From Halosimplex pelagicum (lineage in GTDB: Archaea; Halobacteriota; Halobacteria; Halobacteriales; Haloarculaceae), in assembly GCF_013415905.1 (NCBI RefSeq), contig NZ_CP058909.1, positions 4,092,001 through 4,156,000 on the forward strand: a stretch of 64,000 bases of DNA, read 5' to 3'. A program made the translations under genes and the position numbers. The number at the start of each line of letters is the position of its first letter. Position 1 is the stretch's first letter. The notes beneath the pieces are model-generated. The model made no database searches. It was not told the origin of the DNA and saw nothing but the letters and a program-made list of their open reading frames with translations. Positions 1,273 through 36,854 of the stretch are shown here, piece after piece.

Positions 1273-1863
1273 TCACTCGTCGTCGAACGGGGAGCCGGCC
1301 GCTTCCGGTTCGTTGCCGCTGAGGCTGATGATGTTCTCCCGACCGACCCGGAGCTTGCTGATCGCTTCTTCCTCTTCCATCTCCGAGAGGAGCATGCTGA
1401 CCTTGGACTTCGACCAGCCGGTCTCGTCGACGATCCGGGCCTGTTTCATCCGGCCCTCGTTCGATTCGAGGATGTCGACGATGAGTTCTCGGTCGGTCCT
1501 GGCCGCGGGTTCGTCGGGTTCGCCCTTCGGCTCGGCCGTCGGGTCCGGTTCGGACGGGGTCTCGGTCGTCGCCGGGCCGTCCGGTTCGGTCGTCGAGCCG
1601 CCCTCGGAGGAACTCCCGGTCGAGCCGAGCGACGGGAGCCCGGAGTGCCAGGCGGCGACGCCCCCGAGGCCGAGGACGACCAGAACCACGGCGGCGACCA
1701 TCATGCCGCCGACGTCGCCCGCGCTCGCGGACTGCAGGACGCCGACCTGCGACTCGGCGTCGGCCGAGAGCGACAGCCATCCGCGCGCGTCGGTCGCTCG
1801 CGCTGTCCCGGCCCCGACCGCCAGTGCTTCCCCGACAGCGTCGCCGACCAGCCACTGCAGCAT
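1273..1863 (-). CDS. Membrane-anchored winged-helix protein
   Basis: A 196-residue protein of a type common in haloarchaea. It has an N-terminal segment without clear motifs, one hydrophobic transmembrane helix at about 53-72, a low-complexity Ser/Thr/Pro/Glu linker (about 78-120), and a C-terminal MarR-like winged helix. The last is recognisable from ELIVDILESNEGRMKQ, then a recognition helix around WSKSKVSMLLSEME and the wing GRENIISL. The layout suggests a membrane-tethered transcription factor or sensor. Its targets are unknown. The gene stands alone, 88 bp from the tRNA, and is read toward it. Confidence 0.75.
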   Translation of the reverse strand: MLQWLVGDAVGEALAVGAGTARATDARGWLSLSADAESQVGVLQSASAGDVGGMMVAAVVLVVLGLGGVAAWHSGLPSLGSTGSSSEGGSTTEPDGPATTETPSEPDPTAEPKGEPDEPAARTDRELIVDILESNEGRMKQARIVDETGWSKSKVSMLLSEMEEEEAISKLRVGRENIISLSGNEPEAAGSPFDDE

Positions 1864-1947
1864 CTATCGTAACATGCCGAGGTCGGTATAAAAACGCTGT
1901 GAATACGCGTATTTCGCTCCCGTCGATCGCCGGACGAGAGCGGCCCC

Positions 1948-3006
1948 TCAGGCGAGCCCGACGGTCGGGACGGCGGCCTGCTGGAACACGCCCGCGAGGT
2001 CCAGCAGCGCGACGAGCAGGGTGGTGACGACGATGGCGACCGAGGGCGGGTCGAGGTGGGTGTCGGCGTGTGCGTACAGGACGCGCTGGGCGAGCTCGCC
2101 GACCAGGCCGGCGAGGACGCCGAAGGCGCCGCCGACGAGGATCGCCACGGTCGGACCGGCGTTCGGGAGCGCGAGCGCGGCGATGCCGGCGGGCAGCGCC
2201 ATGTGGTGGGTGACGGGGAACCGCTCGACGCCGGCGGTCAGGAACAGTAGTCCCGTGGCGGCGATGCCGAACGCGAGGAAGTAACTCCCCGTGGCGACGG
2301 CGACGAAGCCGCCGAAGACCCCGACGACGAGCCCCAGGATACCGACGGAGAGCCACTCGGACTGGTAGGGGAGCCACGGTTCGACGACGTACCGGCCCGC
2401 CAGCGACCGGGCGCCGTCGCCGTCGCCGTCGGCGGCCATCCGCCGGTCGCCGTCGCGGTACGGCGACATGTCGAGCAAGTCGGTGTCGAGGCGGCCCAGG
2501 AGGGGGTACCCGAAGACGGCCCGGTGGAGCAGCGCGGAGACAACGACGCTGGCGGCGACCGGGTCCCAGGGCAGCCCCAGTCGGAGCGACAGCCCCGCGA
2601 GCCAGTAGCCGAGGACGCCGAAGACGCCGCCGACGGCGAGCGCGCCCGGTCGCGGGCCGAGCGGCGCCGCGAGGTGCTTGGCCTCGTGGTACGGGAAGTC
2701 GGTGTCGAGGTGGCCCTTGCGGCCGGCGTAGGCGGCGGCCGCGGCGCCGCCGGCGAACGCGACGTGCGGTCCCAGAACCGGTCCGTAGCCGACCAGGCCG
2801 GTGACGCCCGCGTTCGCGAGGTCGGCCGAATCGGCGACGAGCGGTGAGCCGCCCGCGCCGCTCGTGACGCGTGCGATCTCGCCGACCGTGACGACGAGTC
2901 CGGCGAGGCCGTAGGCCGCGTAGCCGCCGAGCGCCGCGCCCACGGCGCCGCCCGCGAACGCCACGAGCAACACGTCGATCGCGAGCAAGCCGCCGTCAAC
3001 TGCCAT
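1948..3006 (-). CDS. Polytopic membrane protein, unknown function
   Basis: About 352 residues, with many Gly/Ala/Val-rich hydrophobic segments over nearly the whole length (about eight possible membrane helices) and a short charged stretch in the middle (around residues 185-215). No catalytic motif is recognised. I chose the ATG at 3006 (MAVDGG) over the in-frame codon at 3015, because it leads directly into the first membrane segment; the difference is three residues. It follows aglB on the same strand after a 149-bp gap, so co-transcription is possible but not shown. Confidence 0.65.
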   Translation of the reverse strand: MAVDGGLLAIDVLLVAFAGGAVGAALGGYAAYGLAGLVVTVGEIARVTSGAGGSPLVADSADLANAGVTGLVGYGPVLGPHVAFAGGAAAAAYAGRKGHLDTDFPYHEAKHLAAPLGPRPGALAVGGVFGVLGYWLAGLSLRLGLPWDPVAASVVVSALLHRAVFGYPLLGRLDTDLLDMSPYRDGDRRMAADGDGDGARSLAGRYVVEPWLPYQSEWLSVGILGLVVGVFGGFVAVATGSYFLAFGIAATGLLFLTAGVERFPVTHHMALPAGIAALALPNAGPTVAILVGGAFGVLAGLVGELAQRVLYAHADTHLDPPSVAIVVTTLLVALLDLAGVFQQAAVPTVGLA

Positions 3007-30458: not shown

Positions 30459-32495
30459 TCATGCGTGGGTCTCCTGAACGGCTTCGTCTCCGGCCGGCAT
30501 CGTGAAGTGGAACGCCGCGCCGTCGCCGGGTTCGGACTCCACCCAGATCTCGCCGCCGTGGCGGTTGACGATGCGTTTGCACATCGCCAGTCCGATCCCG
30601 GTGCTCTCGGAGCGACTGCTGTTCTGCTTGAATATCTCGAAGATGCGGTCGTGCTGGTCGGCTTCGATACCCGGGCCGTCGTCGGCGACGGTGAAGTGGA
30701 CCCGGTCGTCCTCGCGCTCGGCGTCGACCGTGACGGTCGGCTGGTCGCCGCCGTAATGGAGCGCGTTCTCGACGAGGTTCTGGAACAGCTGTCCGAGCTG
30801 CTCGCGGTCGACGGTGACGGCCGGCAGGTCGTCGCCCTCGACGGTGGCCTCGCGCTCCTCGACCAACAGCTCCAGACTCCGGACCGTCTCCTCGAAGACG
30901 GCCCCGGCGTCGGTCTCCGTCAGCTCGTCGCCCTGTGTCGTGACCCGGGAGTACTGGAGGAGCGCGTCGATCATCGCCTGCATCCGGGTCGCGCCGTCGA
31001 CGGCGTACTCCATGTACAGTTCGCCGTCCTCGTCGAAACTGTCCCCGTACTCCTCTTCGAGCAGGGAGACGTAACTCGACACCATCCGTAGGGGCTCCTG
31101 CAGGTCGTGCGAGGCGACGTAGGCGAACTGCTGGAGGCTCTCGTTGGACCGCTGGAGCTCCGTTCGCTGGCGCTCGAGTTCCGCCTCGCGCTCGACGCGT
31201 TCGAGGGCGTCGATAGTCGCTTGCTCGATCATCTCGACCATCGTGCGCTCGAACTCGTCGAACTCGGTCGAGTCGGGGTGACCGACGTTCAACAGCCCGC
31301 GGTCGCCGACCGGGACCAGCATGAGCGTCTCCAGATCGGCACCGGGGGCCGACGGGTTCGAGAGGGCGTCGTACTCCGGAACGACGGTCGGTTCGCCCGC
31401 TCGATAGAGGGCCATCTCGTCGTGGCCCGCCTCGATGGCCGGGAGAGACTCCGTGTCCGACACGCCCGCCACGTCGAGCGCGCTTTCGGAGGCGGCTATC
31501 GGTTCGAGCCGCTCGTCGTCCGCGTCGTACGACCAGTACGCGGTGACCGGACAGCCGATCACCGAGTCCACGATGTCGACGACGATTTCAGCGACCTCCC
31601 GCTCGGACCGGGCGTGGGGCAGCTGTCGCGTCGCTTCGGCGAGGTCCCGGAGCCGCACCTCGCGCTGTTTGAGTTCGGAGACGTCCCGCGAGAACCCCGC
31701 GACGTAGGCGACCGACCCGTCGTCGTCGAAGACCGGCTCGGCGTGGACGCTGATCCAGCGACCGCTCTCTCCCTCGTCGGTCCGGACCTGGAACTCCAGG
31801 TCGGCCGATTCGCCGGCGGAGAGGACGGCCATCTTCTCCGTGACTCGCTCGCGGTCTTCGGGACGGATCCCCTCGAGGAAGTCGCCGGGTTCGTCGATGA
31901 GGTCAGCGACCGAGCGGTCCCACAGGGCCTCGTAGGCCGAGTTGATGATGACGGTCTCCGACCAGTCGCCCGAGAACATCCACAGCGCGTCGTTGGTGTA
32001 CTCGGTCAGCCGAAAGAGCAGATCCGTCGTCTCCTCGAGGCGCCGGTAGGTTCGGTAGTCGTCGACGGCGGTGGCGAGCCGGTCGTTCACCGCCGCGAAC
32101 GTCGCCTCGTCCGGCTCCCCCTCGTACGTGACGTAGCCGTCCGCGCCCGCGTTGACGGCCGCGGCGGCGACCCGCTCGCTCCCCTCGTCGGTCAGCAGGA
32201 CGAACGGGAGCCCGTCGTCTATCGCGCGGACCCGCTCGAGGACGGCGAGCCCGTCCGTGTCGGGGAACGCGTACGCACTGACGACGCAGTCGACGGCGTC
32301 GGTCCCGAGCCCGTCGAGCGCCTCGTCGACGGACGACGCGGCGCGCGCGCTCACCGAGTCGGTCGACGCTTCCAGCCCCTCGGCCACGGCCGCCGCGGTC
32401 GCCTCGTCGGGGTGGAGACAGCGGACGGTGACCGCCTCGTCCGCTTCCACCAGCGGTCTGACGTACGTGGTCGAGTCGAAGTCGACGCCGCTCAC
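30459..32495 (-). CDS. PAS/GAF sensor histidine kinase
   Basis: 678 residues, cytoplasmic. A degenerate receiver-like N-terminal domain (about 15-140) is followed by a PAS domain (about 160-290, ending [13 protein letters not shown]), a GAF-like region (about 300-430), a coiled linker, and the kinase core with H463 in [13 protein letters not shown]. The HATPase part has [19 protein letters not shown] and [13 protein letters not shown]. The start is GTG 32495 with GGAGGG upstream; another in-frame GTG at 32627 would add 44 residues not matching any domain. Haloarchaeal kinases of this form sense redox or small molecules; the stimulus is unknown. Confidence 0.85.
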
Positions 32496-32707
32496 CGGCG
32501 GCCCTCCCGACGGGCGAGCGACCTCGCGTCCGGCGGTCGCCGCGCGACGGATGTATCTCCAGGCATACGCGGTGATCCACGGACGAACGTAAACGTCTGT
32601 GGTCGCAATTATCGCCGGTGATAGCACTGCTCGAGCGCCGCCGAAGGTCGCGATCCGCGCGGAACCGTCCGTAGCGGTTAAATATCAGATGCGTGAGCAC
32701 GTAACGT

Positions 32708-33295
32708 ATGGCGCTGTACGTGTTCGTGGTCGGGGGGTTCGCGGTCGTCCTCGCGGGCTGGCTGGTGCTGTCGTATCTCCGCCGGGCGCACGACCACCTC
32801 GTCGACGCGCGGGAGAACTGCGAGACGGCCTGGAGCAACGTCGAGGTGTTGCTCCAGCGCCGCCACGACGAGGTGGGCAACCTCGTCGAGATCGCCGGCG
32901 AGTACATGGATCACGAGCGGGACGTGCTCGCGGGCGTCGTCGCGGCCCGCGAAGCGGCGATCGAGGCCAACTCGCCCGACCAGGCGGCCATCGCCGAGGC
33001 GGAGATCCGCGACTCGATCCAGGAGTTCTACTCGCTGGCCGAGGAGATGCCCGAGCTGCGGACCGACGAGAAGTTCGCGGACGTGCGCGACTCGCTGCAG
33101 GACGTGGAGCAGCGTCTGGAGAACCGCCGGGAGTACTACAACGACGCCGTCCGCCGGTACAACGCCCTGCTGGAGAAGGTGCCCGAGCGCTACGTCGCCG
33201 CCCGCCGCGGCTACGAACCGCGCGACCAGTTCGAGGCCGAGGAGGCCGCCAAAGGCGAGTTCTCCGTGAGCGACCGCCTCCAGCGGGCCGAGTGA
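32708..33295 (+). CDS. LemA family protein
   Basis: 195 residues. One N-terminal membrane helix (about 3-24) is followed by a long helical domain with the LemA signatures RENCETAWSNVEVLLQRRHD and VRRYNALLEKVPERY. In bacteria LemA proteins are membrane-bound and of unsettled function. The stop overlaps the start of the next gene by one base (TGATG), so the pair is co-translated. A TTAAATAT element (about 32677-32684) lies 24-31 bases before the ATG. Confidence 0.9.
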   Translation: MALYVFVVGGFAVVLAGWLVLSYLRRAHDHLVDARENCETAWSNVEVLLQRRHDEVGNLVEIAGEYMDHERDVLAGVVAAREAAIEANSPDQAAIAEAEIRDSIQEFYSLAEEMPELRTDEKFADVRDSLQDVEQRLENRREYYNDAVRRYNALLEKVPERYVAARRGYEPRDQFEAEEAAKGEFSVSDRLQRAE

Positions 33296-34056
33296 TGGTC
33301 TTCGGCTACGTCGCCTACGCGGGGGTCGTCCTCCTGACGGGCGTCGGCGTGCTCTGGGGGATCGGCTCCCTGCTGGTCGGCTTCGACCGCTTCGAGGAGG
33401 CCCGCGCCATCCGGACGACGCCCGTCGCCTCGCTCGACTCGGTGGCCGTCGGCCCCGCCGCGATCCGCGGCGAGGTCGAACCCGTCGCCGGCCCGGAGAC
33501 CGACATCTACGGCTGCGAGGCCGCCGTCGCCTACGACCTGACCGTCACCGACTTCGAGAACAGCCAGTCGACGACGCCGGTCGACCGCTCGCGCGTCCGG
33601 ACTTTCGACGTGACGACCGACGAGGGGTCGATCCGGGTCGAAGACGCGGTCTTCGACTTGCACGTCTCCGACGAGCGCTCGTGGACGGAGAACCGCGAGA
33701 GCTACCGCACCCCCGACGAGGAGCTGTGGCGCTTCGAGCGCGAGTGGGGTCTCGGCGAGCTGTCCGCCGGCGAGGAGCGCACGTACGAGGCCGAATACCT
33801 CTGTCCCGGCGACGAGGTCTACGTGTACGGCACCGTCGAGGTCGACGACGACCGGGAGGGCGACGAGGGGAAGCCGCTGGTGTTGACCGACCGCGACGGG
33901 CTCGCGTTCGCCTCGGACCGCGACCCCGACGCCCTGCTGCGCGAGCGCCGGTTCGCGCTCGCGAAGGACGGCGCCGTCGGCGTCCTCGTCGGGACCGTCT
34001 CGCTGGCCGCGTTCCTCTGGCTGACCGGCATCGCGCAGGTGTTCCTCGGCGCGTGA
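33295..34056 (+). CDS. GIDE-like membrane protein
   Basis: 253 residues. A membrane helix at the N-terminus (about 5-28) and another near the C-terminus (about 230-250) enclose a soluble domain with ARAIRTTPVASLDSVAVGPAAIRGEVEPV and TDIYGCEAAVAYDL. This matches the GIDE domain found in Mulan-type proteins, but no RING finger is present, so ubiquitin-ligase activity is not expected. Coupled to the LemA gene by a 1-base overlap, a LemA-GIDE combination seen in other prokaryotes. Probably a membrane scaffold; function unknown. Confidence 0.7.
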   Translation: MVFGYVAYAGVVLLTGVGVLWGIGSLLVGFDRFEEARAIRTTPVASLDSVAVGPAAIRGEVEPVAGPETDIYGCEAAVAYDLTVTDFENSQSTTPVDRSRVRTFDVTTDEGSIRVEDAVFDLHVSDERSWTENRESYRTPDEELWRFEREWGLGELSAGEERTYEAEYLCPGDEVYVYGTVEVDDDREGDEGKPLVLTDRDGLAFASDRDPDALLRERRFALAKDGAVGVLVGTVSLAAFLWLTGIAQVFLGA

Positions 34057-34096
34057 GCGGTGGACCCGGCGCGTGAACGGGAGTCGGAGCGGCCGG

Positions 34097-35674
34097 TCAC
34101 TCCGTCGCCGACCGCAGTCCACCGACGGCGGCCCGCCCCAGCGACAGGACGCCCCACTTGAGCAGCTTGTAGAGGTACCACGCCGCGAGCAGCGAGACCG
34201 CGAACAGCAGCCAGATCACCTGCGCGGACTGCCCGTCGATCGGTCCGGCGACGGCCTCCAGCGCGGTCCCGAGCGCGACGAACGCGACGAAAAGCGAGAC
34301 GCCGAACCCGACGACGAACCCGGTGAACTGCGCGGTGTTTGTCAGGTCGTGGACCAGACTCTTCCAGAGGTAGTCGACCCGGCTCTGCTCGCCCGGCGGT
34401 TCGGGGTCCGGGTCGCGCTCGGGGCCCCCGCCGTCGGTGTCCGAACCCGTCTCCGCTCGCCCCGAATCGCCCCCGTCGTCGTCCGACCGGATCACCTCGT
34501 CGGGCACCGGCCAGGAACGACCCGCGAGCGTCGCCGCGCAGTCGTCACAGGGGGCTTCGTCGGCGATGTCCAGTTCCCGAACGGTCGGCGAGGAGGAGAA
34601 CGGACACCGCTTGTCGCTGCACTTCTCGGCGCCCAGGAGCCGACCGGCCTGCGTGACCGCCTGCTTGCGGACGCGCGTCTCGCGGTCGCGGTCGGCTTCG
34701 GACGCCGGGATATCCGCGTCTTCGGCAAGCCGAAACGTCGAGAACAGGGCCGTCGAGCCGCCGATCCCCCCGACGCCGAAGACGTAGTTCCGCCGATTCG
34801 CGAAGAGATCGGCGTCGGTGACGGCGAGGGTCGGTTCCGTGCCGACCGCTCCGTCGAGCGCGTCGAGGACCGCCACGGCGTCGTACTGCTCGCGAGCGTC
34901 GTCGTAGGCGTCGTCGGGGAGCGCGGAGAGCGCGACCGGCTCCGACGCGACGGTCGCGTCGAACGGCAGGTGCGTCTCGACGGCGTCGACCGCCGCCTCG
35001 ACCGCGGCGTCGTCCGGGTCGCCGAGGGCGACGACCTCGAGCGGCGACGACTCGCCGGTCCCGCCCCCGCGCTCGGACGGCCCGGACACCGCCCCGCCGT
35101 CGAGCGACCAGTCGCCGTCGGGAACGAGCGGCGAACTGCGACCCAGCAACTCCTCGCGACACGACTCGCAGGGGTCGGGGCCGATGCGGTCGAACTCCCG
35201 CGCGTCGTCGGCGACGTGGAAGAGGCAGGTCTCGTCGTCGCAGGCGTCCATCCCGACGAGGTAGCCGACGTGCTGGGACGTGACCGTCCGCAGGCGGTCC
35301 TCGAACGCCGGATCGCCGCGGTCGCCGAGGTCCGCGGTCGAGACGATCGCCTTCGAGCCGTGCCGCCAGGCGAGCCCGAACGCCCGCTCGACGCGCGGCT
35401 TGACGATCGTCTCGTCGGTGACGGCCAGGACCCGGTCGCGGCCGCTCCGGTCGCGGGCGTAGTCGGCGAGTTCCAACCCGTGATACAGCCCCTCCGCGTG
35501 CGTGCCGTCGAAGCCCGACAGCGGCACGTCTCCAGGGTGAATCCGCGCGTCGACCGGGATCGTCTCCGCGGCGCCCTCGGCGACCGTTTCCAGCGTCGCC
35601 CTGTCGACCCCGCCGACCCCGACGATCCACAGCGGCTCCGCCCCCGTCGTCGTCCGTCCCGTGCCCGTTCCCAT
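34097..35674 (-). CDS. Membrane protein with two catalytically dead archaemetzincin-like domains
   Basis: 525 residues. Domain 1 (about 12-180) and domain 2 (about 212-385) each resemble archaemetzincin: VTDETI...RAFG and VTDADLFANRRNYVFGVGGIGG, then KAIVSTADL and ALFSTFRL. In both, the metzincin HExxHxxGxxH is gone: residues 134-144 read Q-H-V-G-Y-L-V-G-M-D-A, and 341-351 read T-Q-A-G-R-L-L-G-A-E-K; only the Gly survives. The Cys4 structural zinc site is kept in both with identical spacing C-x4-C-x18-C-x2-C (145, 150, 169, 172 and 352, 357, 376, 379). An acidic linker leads to two C-terminal membrane helices (about 451-472 and 484-503). Likely a binding or scaffold protein. Confidence 0.75.
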   Translation of the reverse strand: MGTGTGRTTTGAEPLWIVGVGGVDRATLETVAEGAAETIPVDARIHPGDVPLSGFDGTHAEGLYHGLELADYARDRSGRDRVLAVTDETIVKPRVERAFGLAWRHGSKAIVSTADLGDRGDPAFEDRLRTVTSQHVGYLVGMDACDDETCLFHVADDAREFDRIGPDPCESCREELLGRSSPLVPDGDWSLDGGAVSGPSERGGGTGESSPLEVVALGDPDDAAVEAAVDAVETHLPFDATVASEPVALSALPDDAYDDAREQYDAVAVLDALDGAVGTEPTLAVTDADLFANRRNYVFGVGGIGGSTALFSTFRLAEDADIPASEADRDRETRVRKQAVTQAGRLLGAEKCSDKRCPFSSSPTVRELDIADEAPCDDCAATLAGRSWPVPDEVIRSDDDGGDSGRAETGSDTDGGGPERDPDPEPPGEQSRVDYLWKSLVHDLTNTAQFTGFVVGFGVSLFVAFVALGTALEAVAGPIDGQSAQVIWLLFAVSLLAAWYLYKLLKWGVLSLGRAAVGGLRSATE

Positions 35675-35780
35675 CGATGTCAGCCGGGTTTCACGGGGCC
35701 CGCAATAACTGTTCCGACTACCGACAGGTGTGCGCTCGCGGTTCTCGGTGTCCGATCCGTCTCCCAGGTGTCCTCTCGGA

Positions 35781-36854
35781 CTACCAGGTGCCGTGGAACG
35801 TGTCGAACGCGAGGTCCTCCAGCGGTTCCTCGCCGATGGCGATGCGGTACTCCTGGGGGGTGAGCATCGGCTGTTTGAACTGCGGGCCGTCGTCGGTGGT
35901 GATGCGCGGACAGCCCGTGTTGACGTAGGCGTCCAGCCCGAAGTTGGTCAGGCGGTCGGGCGTCACCTCGTCCATCGTGATGAGGTAGGCGTTCTCGTTG
36001 TTCTCGACGATCTCCTGGGCCTGGTCCCAGCGGCCCTGACCGATCTTGGTGCAGAAGATGACGCCCCACTCCTCGGCGTCCATCGCGCGGTGGACCGCGC
36101 CGTAGCGCTGTTTCATGAACTTCTCCGTGTCCGCGACGGAGACGGCGTTGTTGACGGGGTCGGCGATGACGACTTTCTTGTCGGGGTGCTCCATCGCGAG
36201 GCCGAGCGGGTGGAACTTCCCGCCGCCGACGTAGAGCATCTGGTCGGCGTCCACGTCCGCGCTGGCGTAGTTACACCCGAGGACCTGTCCCTCGTGGGTG
36301 AGTCGGTCGTCGCCCTTGCGGGTGTGGACGGTGTAGCCGCGCTCTTCGAGCCACGAGCGCATCTCGTCGAACTTGTTCATGTGCTGGGCGGTCGTCACGA
36401 GGCCCACGTCGGGGTCCTCCTCGGCCGGCGAGAGCTGTTCGTCGGCCGCCCGCTCCATGATCGGGAAGACGTCGACGTTGGAGAACAGCGGGACGTAGAT
36501 GATCTTGTCCGACTCCTTCATCGGGCTGTGCCCGAAGTGGACGAACACGTCCGTCCGGCGCATCAGGTAGGTGTCCAGGTCGCAGGCGCCGTAGCAGGGC
36601 TGGCCCGACATCATGACGCTCACGTCGTCGGGCAGTTCGCTGCGGAGGTCGTCGGCGACGCGCGGGCCGCGGCGCTTGAGTCCCTCGGGGAACTGCAGGC
36701 CGACGGTCTCGGCGCCCCGTTCTTCGACGGCGTCGACGATGCGGTCGAGTTCGTAGTCCCACTCGCGGTCGTGGCGCAGCGACATCCCCGTCTTGGTGAG
36801 GTCGCCCTCGGTGCGAGGCGCGTCGTCGGCCTCGCCGCGCGAATCCTGGCTCAT
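35781..36854 (-). CDS. dph2: Diphthamide biosynthesis protein Dph2
   Basis: 357 residues. The enzyme moves the 3-amino-3-carboxypropyl group of S-adenosylmethionine onto a His of elongation factor 2, the first step of diphthamide formation. The three Cys that hold the radical-generating [4Fe-4S] cluster are visible, one per domain: C91 in PCYGACDLD, C194 in VLGCNYA and C315 in NTGCPRI. Length and motifs are normal for archaeal Dph2. Alone on its strand, with its own start at 36854; no operon partner. Confidence 0.93.
   Translation of the reverse strand: MSQDSRGEADDAPRTEGDLTKTGMSLRHDREWDYELDRIVDAVEERGAETVGLQFPEGLKRRGPRVADDLRSELPDDVSVMMSGQPCYGACDLDTYLMRRTDVFVHFGHSPMKESDKIIYVPLFSNVDVFPIMERAADEQLSPAEEDPDVGLVTTAQHMNKFDEMRSWLEERGYTVHTRKGDDRLTHEGQVLGCNYASADVDADQMLYVGGGKFHPLGLAMEHPDKKVVIADPVNNAVSVADTEKFMKQRYGAVHRAMDAEEWGVIFCTKIGQGRWDQAQEIVENNENAYLITMDEVTPDRLTNFGLDAYVNTGCPRITTDDGPQFKQPMLTPQEYRIAIGEEPLEDLAFDTFHGTW

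Follow-up and report, generated by a model that had tools for sequence, protein, structure and literature searches.

What might an archaemetzincin do once its catalytic site is gone? A 64,000-nucleotide stretch of the Halosimplex pelagicum genome (the window) raises this question, for it encodes a single protein with two archaemetzincin-like (peptidase family M54) domains, neither of which keeps the catalytic residues. The initial annotation correctly placed the gene at positions 34097 to 35674 and gave no strand; it lies on the minus strand, where the open reading frame begins with ATG and shows a strong coding bias (GC by codon position of 0.74/0.52/0.92). A 596-amino-acid frame on the plus strand is also open over this interval; it is arginine-rich, overlapping, and unsupported, and we discarded it. 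The gene and its parts are as follows.

34097 to 35674, minus strand: tandem pseudo-archaemetzincin with a C-terminal membrane hairpin, 525 amino acids (open reading frame, profiles, hydropathy)
35129 to 35641, minus strand: M54-like domain 1, residues ~12 to 182 (best PF07998 stretch 83 to 176; AlphaFold2; PDB matches)
35243 to 35275, minus strand: QHVGYLVGMDA in place of HExxHxxGxxH in domain 1, residues 134 to 144 (alignment to intact AmzA)
35159 to 35242, minus strand: Cys4 site of domain 1, Cys145, 150, 169, and 172 (alignment to intact AmzA)
34520 to 35041, minus strand: M54-like domain 2, residues ~212 to 385 (best NF033823 stretch 214 to 383; phmmer match to 3zvs, 1.2e-12; Foldseek)
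34622 to 34654, minus strand: TQAGRLLGAEK in place of the domain 2 active site, residues 341 to 351 (alignment to intact AmzA)
34538 to 34621, minus strand: Cys4 site of domain 2, Cys352, 357, 376, and 379 (alignment to intact AmzA)
34172 to 34327, minus strand: C-terminal transmembrane hairpin, helices 450 to 468 and 483 to 501, followed by a K/R-rich tail (hydropathy)

By descent and fold, the protein belongs to the M54 family. Both Pfam PF07998 (Peptidase_M54; E = 7e-10) and NCBIfam NF033823 (archmetzin; 145.7 bits) match the 525-amino-acid protein in two stretches, and a phmmer search of PDB sequences matched the archaemetzincins 3zvs, 4axq, 2x7m, and 3lmc. The AlphaFold2 model of domain 1, made with only four sequences (pLDDT 75, pTM 0.75), is usable and has archaemetzincins for all of its top five PDB matches in Foldseek (TM-score on target 0.69 to 0.84), and the low-confidence model of domain 2 with the hairpin (pLDDT 56) has the same archaemetzincins as its top five. 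Profiles, tree, and structural matches, the last from a weak model in the case of domain 2, all agree with the archaemetzincin fold that the initial annotation had assigned and had proposed to check by structure prediction.

Aligned to intact AmzA, the catalytic H, E, H, and H positions are occupied by Q134, H135, Y138, and A144 in domain 1 and by T341, Q342, R345, and K351 in domain 2, bearing out the claim that both domains lack all three zinc His and the catalytic Glu. Both domains thus lack the HExxHxxGxxH with its Glu that defines an active M54 metallopeptidase, and in both the Met of the Met-turn (Cys-x-Met) is replaced by Phe. With every catalytic residue gone, the protein is in all probability non-enzymatic, as had been proposed. 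What each domain retains is the Cys4 motif of the family (CX4C...CXXC), at the identical spacing (x4, x18, x2) already described for this protein, together with a substrate-edge motif that is STxRL-like in domain 2 and partial (STADL) in domain 1. Because HExxHxxGxxHC with Cys at x4 and x18 is present in 74 of the 74 intact haloarchaeal AmzA copies that we checked, the spacing in the window is the M54 family's own and not a product of chance. Mutating one of these residues to Ala (Cys163Ala) destabilizes the AmzA of Methanopyrus (MkAmzA) (PMC3427221), and a folding need therefore explains why the Cys have been kept. The tandem protein barely clears the NF033823 cut-off of 145 bits, as the sum of two dead domains, and the rule as it stands would name it an active Zn-dependent protease.

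The strongest functional clue for the tandem protein is its conserved LemA-GIDE neighborhood, which the initial annotation overlooked. The neighboring features are the following.

32708 to 33295, plus strand: LemA-family membrane protein, 195 amino acids, convergent partner (Pfam LemA PF04011, 8.7e-39)
33295 to 34056, plus strand: GIDE/BAM-like membrane protein with two TM helices, 253 amino acids (alignment to orthologues)
35781 to 36854, minus strand: Dph2
32476 to 35781, no strand: segment missing as a unit in six congeners that are syntenic on both sides (congener loci compared with the window by blastn)

The LemA protein scores 133 bits, above the Pfam gathering score of 26.2. The start of the GIDE-like gene overlaps the LemA stop by one base, and its product has no Pfam match alone; the L002 orthologue matches GIDE PF12483 (5e-6; 26.5 bits, with a cut-off of 23.6). 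The GIDE-like gene faces the tandem gene, ~40 bases from the tandem gene's end, and Dph2 lies behind the latter. PADLOC found no defense-system match for LemA, GIDE, or the tandem protein, and we dropped a defense-system reading on that basis. In the six congeners, DNA flanking the trio aligns at 76 to 92% and the trio is missing between the flanks, in some cases along with part of a flanking gene; the GIDE gene was not found anywhere in these six. At the empty site, ~0.2 kb separates the histidine kinase gene from Dph2 in L119 and L122; similarity to the histidine kinase gene stops early in L120 and L121, and the kinase gene is also missing in L123 and L124. This gap thus varies, and the missing segment does not have the same ends in all of L119 to L124.

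How general is this neighborhood? Within the family, the window GIDE protein has a strong match in 8 of 146 genomes, and the same 8 have a membrane-anchored M54 protein. A GIDE profile run against 392 Halobacteria genomes separated 17 genomes (>225 bits) from the rest (<96 bits) by a clear gap, and every one of the 17 has LemA beside GIDE and an adjacent, active-site-dead, M54-like protein with a C-terminal hydrophobic hairpin (pseudo-AMZ). The reverse search, with a profile of the membrane form, gave full-length matches in 18 of the 392 genomes: the same 17, which have the trio, and G282, where the gene is an orphan with neither LemA nor GIDE within about 6 kb. G434 is an eighteenth genome with the trio, beyond the 17 strong-GIDE genomes, and LemA is adjacent in all 18 of these cassette genomes. 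The pseudo-AMZ gene is convergent in 16 of the trios and in tandem upstream of LemA in two (G088 and G138). No strong GIDE was seen outside the Halobacteria in a phylum sample of 393 genomes that overlaps the class, and none of 10 weaker-GIDE loci has the membrane form of archaemetzincin. Those 10 loci also lack any recurring HExxH neighbor, and we rejected the notion that HtpX or another metalloprotease is the usual third partner of GIDE and has been swapped here. A separate LemA/GIDE expansion is found in G325 (genus Haloarcula; L154:4949-10838), which has five GIDE-like genes and one LemA without an archaemetzincin.

The trio occupies at least seven unrelated genomic contexts, and no gene other than its members was seen in all of them. 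Haloarcula genomes (G139, G187, G240, and G297; the named H. sebkhae and H. japonica) share the gene order and place of the window, with a single M54 domain; elsewhere the surroundings include an electron-transfer flavoprotein (G021), aRF1/V-ATPase (G434), and, recognized by eye from its sequence, FtsY (G178). A search of haloarchaeal genomes for the same two-domain architecture had been suggested: dead membrane-anchored relatives are there, but the tandem form is found in the window alone, and the relatives have one M54 domain and the hairpin. A search of genome contigs with the full tandem protein gave no match, and the profile search led to the two named Haloarcula species (H. sebkhae and H. 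japonica).

We propose that, on balance, the tandem protein is probably a catalytically dead archaemetzincin that would serve as a non-proteolytic binding subunit of a LemA-GIDE membrane complex. Catalytic death extends throughout the cassette. An intact HExxHxxGxxH occurs in 0 of the 18 cassette genomes versus 74 of 74 AmzA copies, and the substitutions vary by lineage (e.g., K,Q,R; S,E,Y; and A,V,A). These relatives undercut the earlier argument that equal loss in both copies of the window protein points to selection, since the single-domain proteins are already inactive. Because all of them are, one ancestral loss suffices for both dead domains, the independent inactivation of domains 1 and 2 that we considered is unnecessary, and active-site loss would most simply predate the domain duplication. 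Nor does the proposal that homologues with an intact HExxHxxGxxH would mark this copy as merely decayed apply here: the intact AmzA of this genome is a separate locus (L094, HEIGHTMGLEHC), and the cassette relatives are inactive without exception.

Among cassette copies, the last three Cys of the site never vary. The first is kept in the window, in Haloarcula, and in G021; the other 12 of the 18 cassette genomes have lost it, and all 12 carry, within that segment, a His that is probably a replacement zinc ligand. Retention of the full Cys4 site, therefore, stands for the window protein but fails as a rule for the family. It is conceivable that the Cys4 sites are themselves the working part, sensing zinc or redox state by a conformational switch upon oxidation or zinc loss and signaling to LemA/GIDE; the Cys set is the most conserved remaining feature, and oxidation of the archaemetzincin Cys4 has been raised as a speculative regulatory route (PMC3427221). 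We regard such a sensor as unlikely: every active AmzA protein that we checked has this Cys4 too, and its mutation destabilizes the fold, such that structural need suffices, and a first Cys that two-thirds of the cassette genomes have lost speaks against it as well.

Might the gene instead be a duplicated archaemetzincin that lost its activity and is drifting toward loss? Pseudo-AMZ is the fastest evolving of the trio, domain 1 is a long branch, and the segment is missing in six congeners. The 525-amino-acid frame, however, is unbroken and strongly codon-biased, equally defective relatives persist intact in 18 genomes from three families, and the congeners lack the whole trio rather than keeping a fragment of the tandem gene. 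Three Cys are invariant, and purifying selection is evident in Haloarcula, where the pseudo-AMZ domain has a dN/dS of 0.31 to 0.41 (Fisher p 0.001 to 0.018). The dN/dS estimates compare the divergent G187 with the other Haloarcula copies; the closest pairs are too alike to inform, and the tandem copy has no close relative. Constraint on pseudo-AMZ (0.3 to 0.5) is weaker than on GIDE (0.12 to 0.15) or LemA (0.05 to 0.13) yet is not neutral. Decay is largely refuted by the conservation of the dead form across genera, and we consider it extremely improbable; the earlier claim that the protein is under selection is upheld by this conservation and by the Haloarcula dN/dS values.

The tree places domain 1, domain 2, and the Haloarcula domain together (100/94). 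Domain 1 joins Haloarcula (99/97), and a sister relationship of domains 1 and 2 is rejected (p-AU 0.017). The domain duplication may predate the split from the Haloarcula form, with the long branch of domain 1 limiting how well it can be dated. A single origin of the cassette copies as a whole was not rejected (p-AU 0.23), nor was it demonstrated.

In nine genomes in which AmzA stays at 70% identity or more, pseudo-AMZ is only 19 to 37% identical to the window copy. Protein distances across ten genomes correlate at 0.93 between LemA and GIDE and at 0.87 between GIDE and pseudo-AMZ, compared with 0.52 to 0.66 for correlations with the AmzA of the same genomes. Because of the shared linkage, contexts, joint absence, and distance correlations, we conclude that the trio moves as a unit. 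At the Haloarcula cassette locus (L128 and L031 to L033), the dS of LemA, GIDE, and pseudo-AMZ is ~0.12, a third of the ~0.4 of Dph2, which suggests recent cassette exchange between Haloarcula species. Such exchange, and the movement of the cassette between contexts, would also be expected of a passenger that rides beside LemA-GIDE on transferred DNA without sharing its function. Passengers, however, would be shed, and this linkage holds at such low protein identity, in three families and two orientations, with the third gene absent from none of the 17 strong-GIDE genomes that have LemA-GIDE; we think a passenger very unlikely.

The retained substrate-edge motif and an intact AmzA in all ten cassette genomes tested would suit another role, in which the protein regulates AmzA, either as a decoy held at the membrane, in competition for AmzA substrates, or through inhibitory pairing with AmzA. 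This is doubtful, given that almost every genome (390 of 392) has an AmzA-type match whereas the dead form tracks LemA/GIDE, and that pseudo-AMZ distances correlate with those of GIDE (0.87) better than with those of AmzA (0.64).

As a non-proteolytic binding subunit of a LemA-GIDE complex, the tandem protein would have a precedent in CarG of Myxococcus xanthus, which is archaemetzincin-like, has no protease activity, and binds CarD in a tight complex as an obligate partner that always co-occurs with it (PMC8156234). For the tandem protein the counterpart would be LemA/GIDE, with which genomic co-occurrence is 17/17; CarG differs in keeping the three zinc His and losing only the Glu (HQxxH...), in being soluble, and in acting in transcription with CarD. 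NF033824 (Myxo_non_zincin), which from its name we take to be the family model of CarG, gives the tandem protein 112.3 bits against a cut-off of 250, and with its zinc His lost the protein is not a CarG-type member. By analogy, it would at most work like CarG from outside the CarG family. AmzA itself (PF07998, NF033823) is similar in fold, Cys4 spacing, edge-strand motif, and sequence profile, but the window protein lacks the catalytic His and Glu and the Met-turn Met and adds tandem domains, a membrane hairpin, and the LemA/GIDE link. In human AMZ1, another M54 member, part of the active site is likewise replaced (the third His; PMC3427221). Most of the AMZ1 active site, in contrast to that of the window protein, is kept. 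We know of no LemA/GIDE link for AMZ1.

LemA and the GIDE-like protein also have known relatives. The LemA family includes MamQ of magnetosomes, which belongs to the magnetosome gene set; the LemA-family neighbor in the window scores just 69 bits against the MamQ profile, with a cut-off of 250. Human MAPL/MUL1 (GIDE/BAM) has two TM helices around a GIDE-type domain, as the GIDE-like protein of the window probably does; the latter, however, has no RING, belongs to an archaeal clade specific to the cassette, and alone falls below Pfam detection.

The two hydrophobic C-terminal helices support the view, already put forward, that the protein is membrane anchored. Gly270 of the hairpin (numbering of the domain 2 plus TM reference) is invariant in 14 aligned sequences, and in most copies charged residues flank the hairpin on the M54-domain and tail side, with few or none in the loop. 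The positive-inside rule suggests that the M54 domains lie on the cytoplasmic face, and, applied to LemA and GIDE, it would put their domains on this face as well, at odds with published topologies: the C-terminal domain of LemA is predicted to lie outside the cell (PMC3905215), and the BAM domain of human MAPL is in the intermembrane space (PMC4457424).

Assembled into a mechanism, these features would work as follows. Each M54 domain would fold like AmzA, stiffened by a structural site in which zinc is presumably bound, by Cys4 here and by three Cys and probably a His in distant relatives, with the catalytic zinc site gone from both domains. The two-helix hairpin would hold the domains at the cytoplasmic membrane face as the third component of a LemA-GIDE complex, where they may act as an obligate protein- or peptide-binding subunit, as CarG serves CarD; in the window copy, a single anchor would carry two such binding domains in tandem. 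Several observations weigh against this reading: the orphan in G282, the low-confidence model of domain 2 with the hairpin, the disagreement with published topologies, and the faster evolution of pseudo-AMZ relative to LemA and GIDE, by which its binding target is not strongly fixed. The complex may have a role in membrane remodeling or stress. More tentatively, and as a possibility that we rate below an even chance, LemA, this GIDE clade, and the dead archaemetzincin could make up a haloarchaeal membrane machine of three proteins that has gone undescribed. Its ex-protease cleft would capture polypeptides uncut and hand them on, or report them, to LemA/GIDE, with the tandem copy as a two-armed form.

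Other M54 paralogues with altered active sites are found in haloarchaea. G310 encodes a soluble second archaemetzincin (L179, C64:24104-24637; protein at 1495-2064, minus strand) with HHxxHxxGxxHC, keeping the three zinc His with Glu changed to His, by which it would have reached a probably non-catalytic form along a separate route. Paralogues with broken active sites and retained Cys occur in G126 (L090:4302-4946, minus strand), G058 (L096:4337-4924, minus strand), G403 (L177), and G346 (L178), with no LemA/GIDE beside them in the stretches read; the G403 protein additionally carries a hydrophobic stretch at its C terminus. Haloarchaea may have given rise to pseudo-archaemetzincins on more than one occasion.

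Non-proteolytic archaemetzincins are already known from CarG; the membrane-anchored, LemA-GIDE-linked form appears to be undescribed in the open-licence papers searched, among which we found neither the LemA-GIDE association, nor the membrane anchor, nor the tandem form of a dead archaemetzincin. Open-licence PMC literature likewise yielded no paper on a linkage of LemA with GIDE or with a metallopeptidase/HtpX. According to one paper, MamQ is the only LemA member tied to a cellular process (PMC4902198). Our sequence comparisons suggest that archaea have turned archaemetzincins to non-catalytic use. Little is understood about the function of the widespread LemA and GIDE/BAM proteins; a fixed third partner in culturable haloarchaea such as Haloarcula japonica and H. 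sebkhae makes that function testable.
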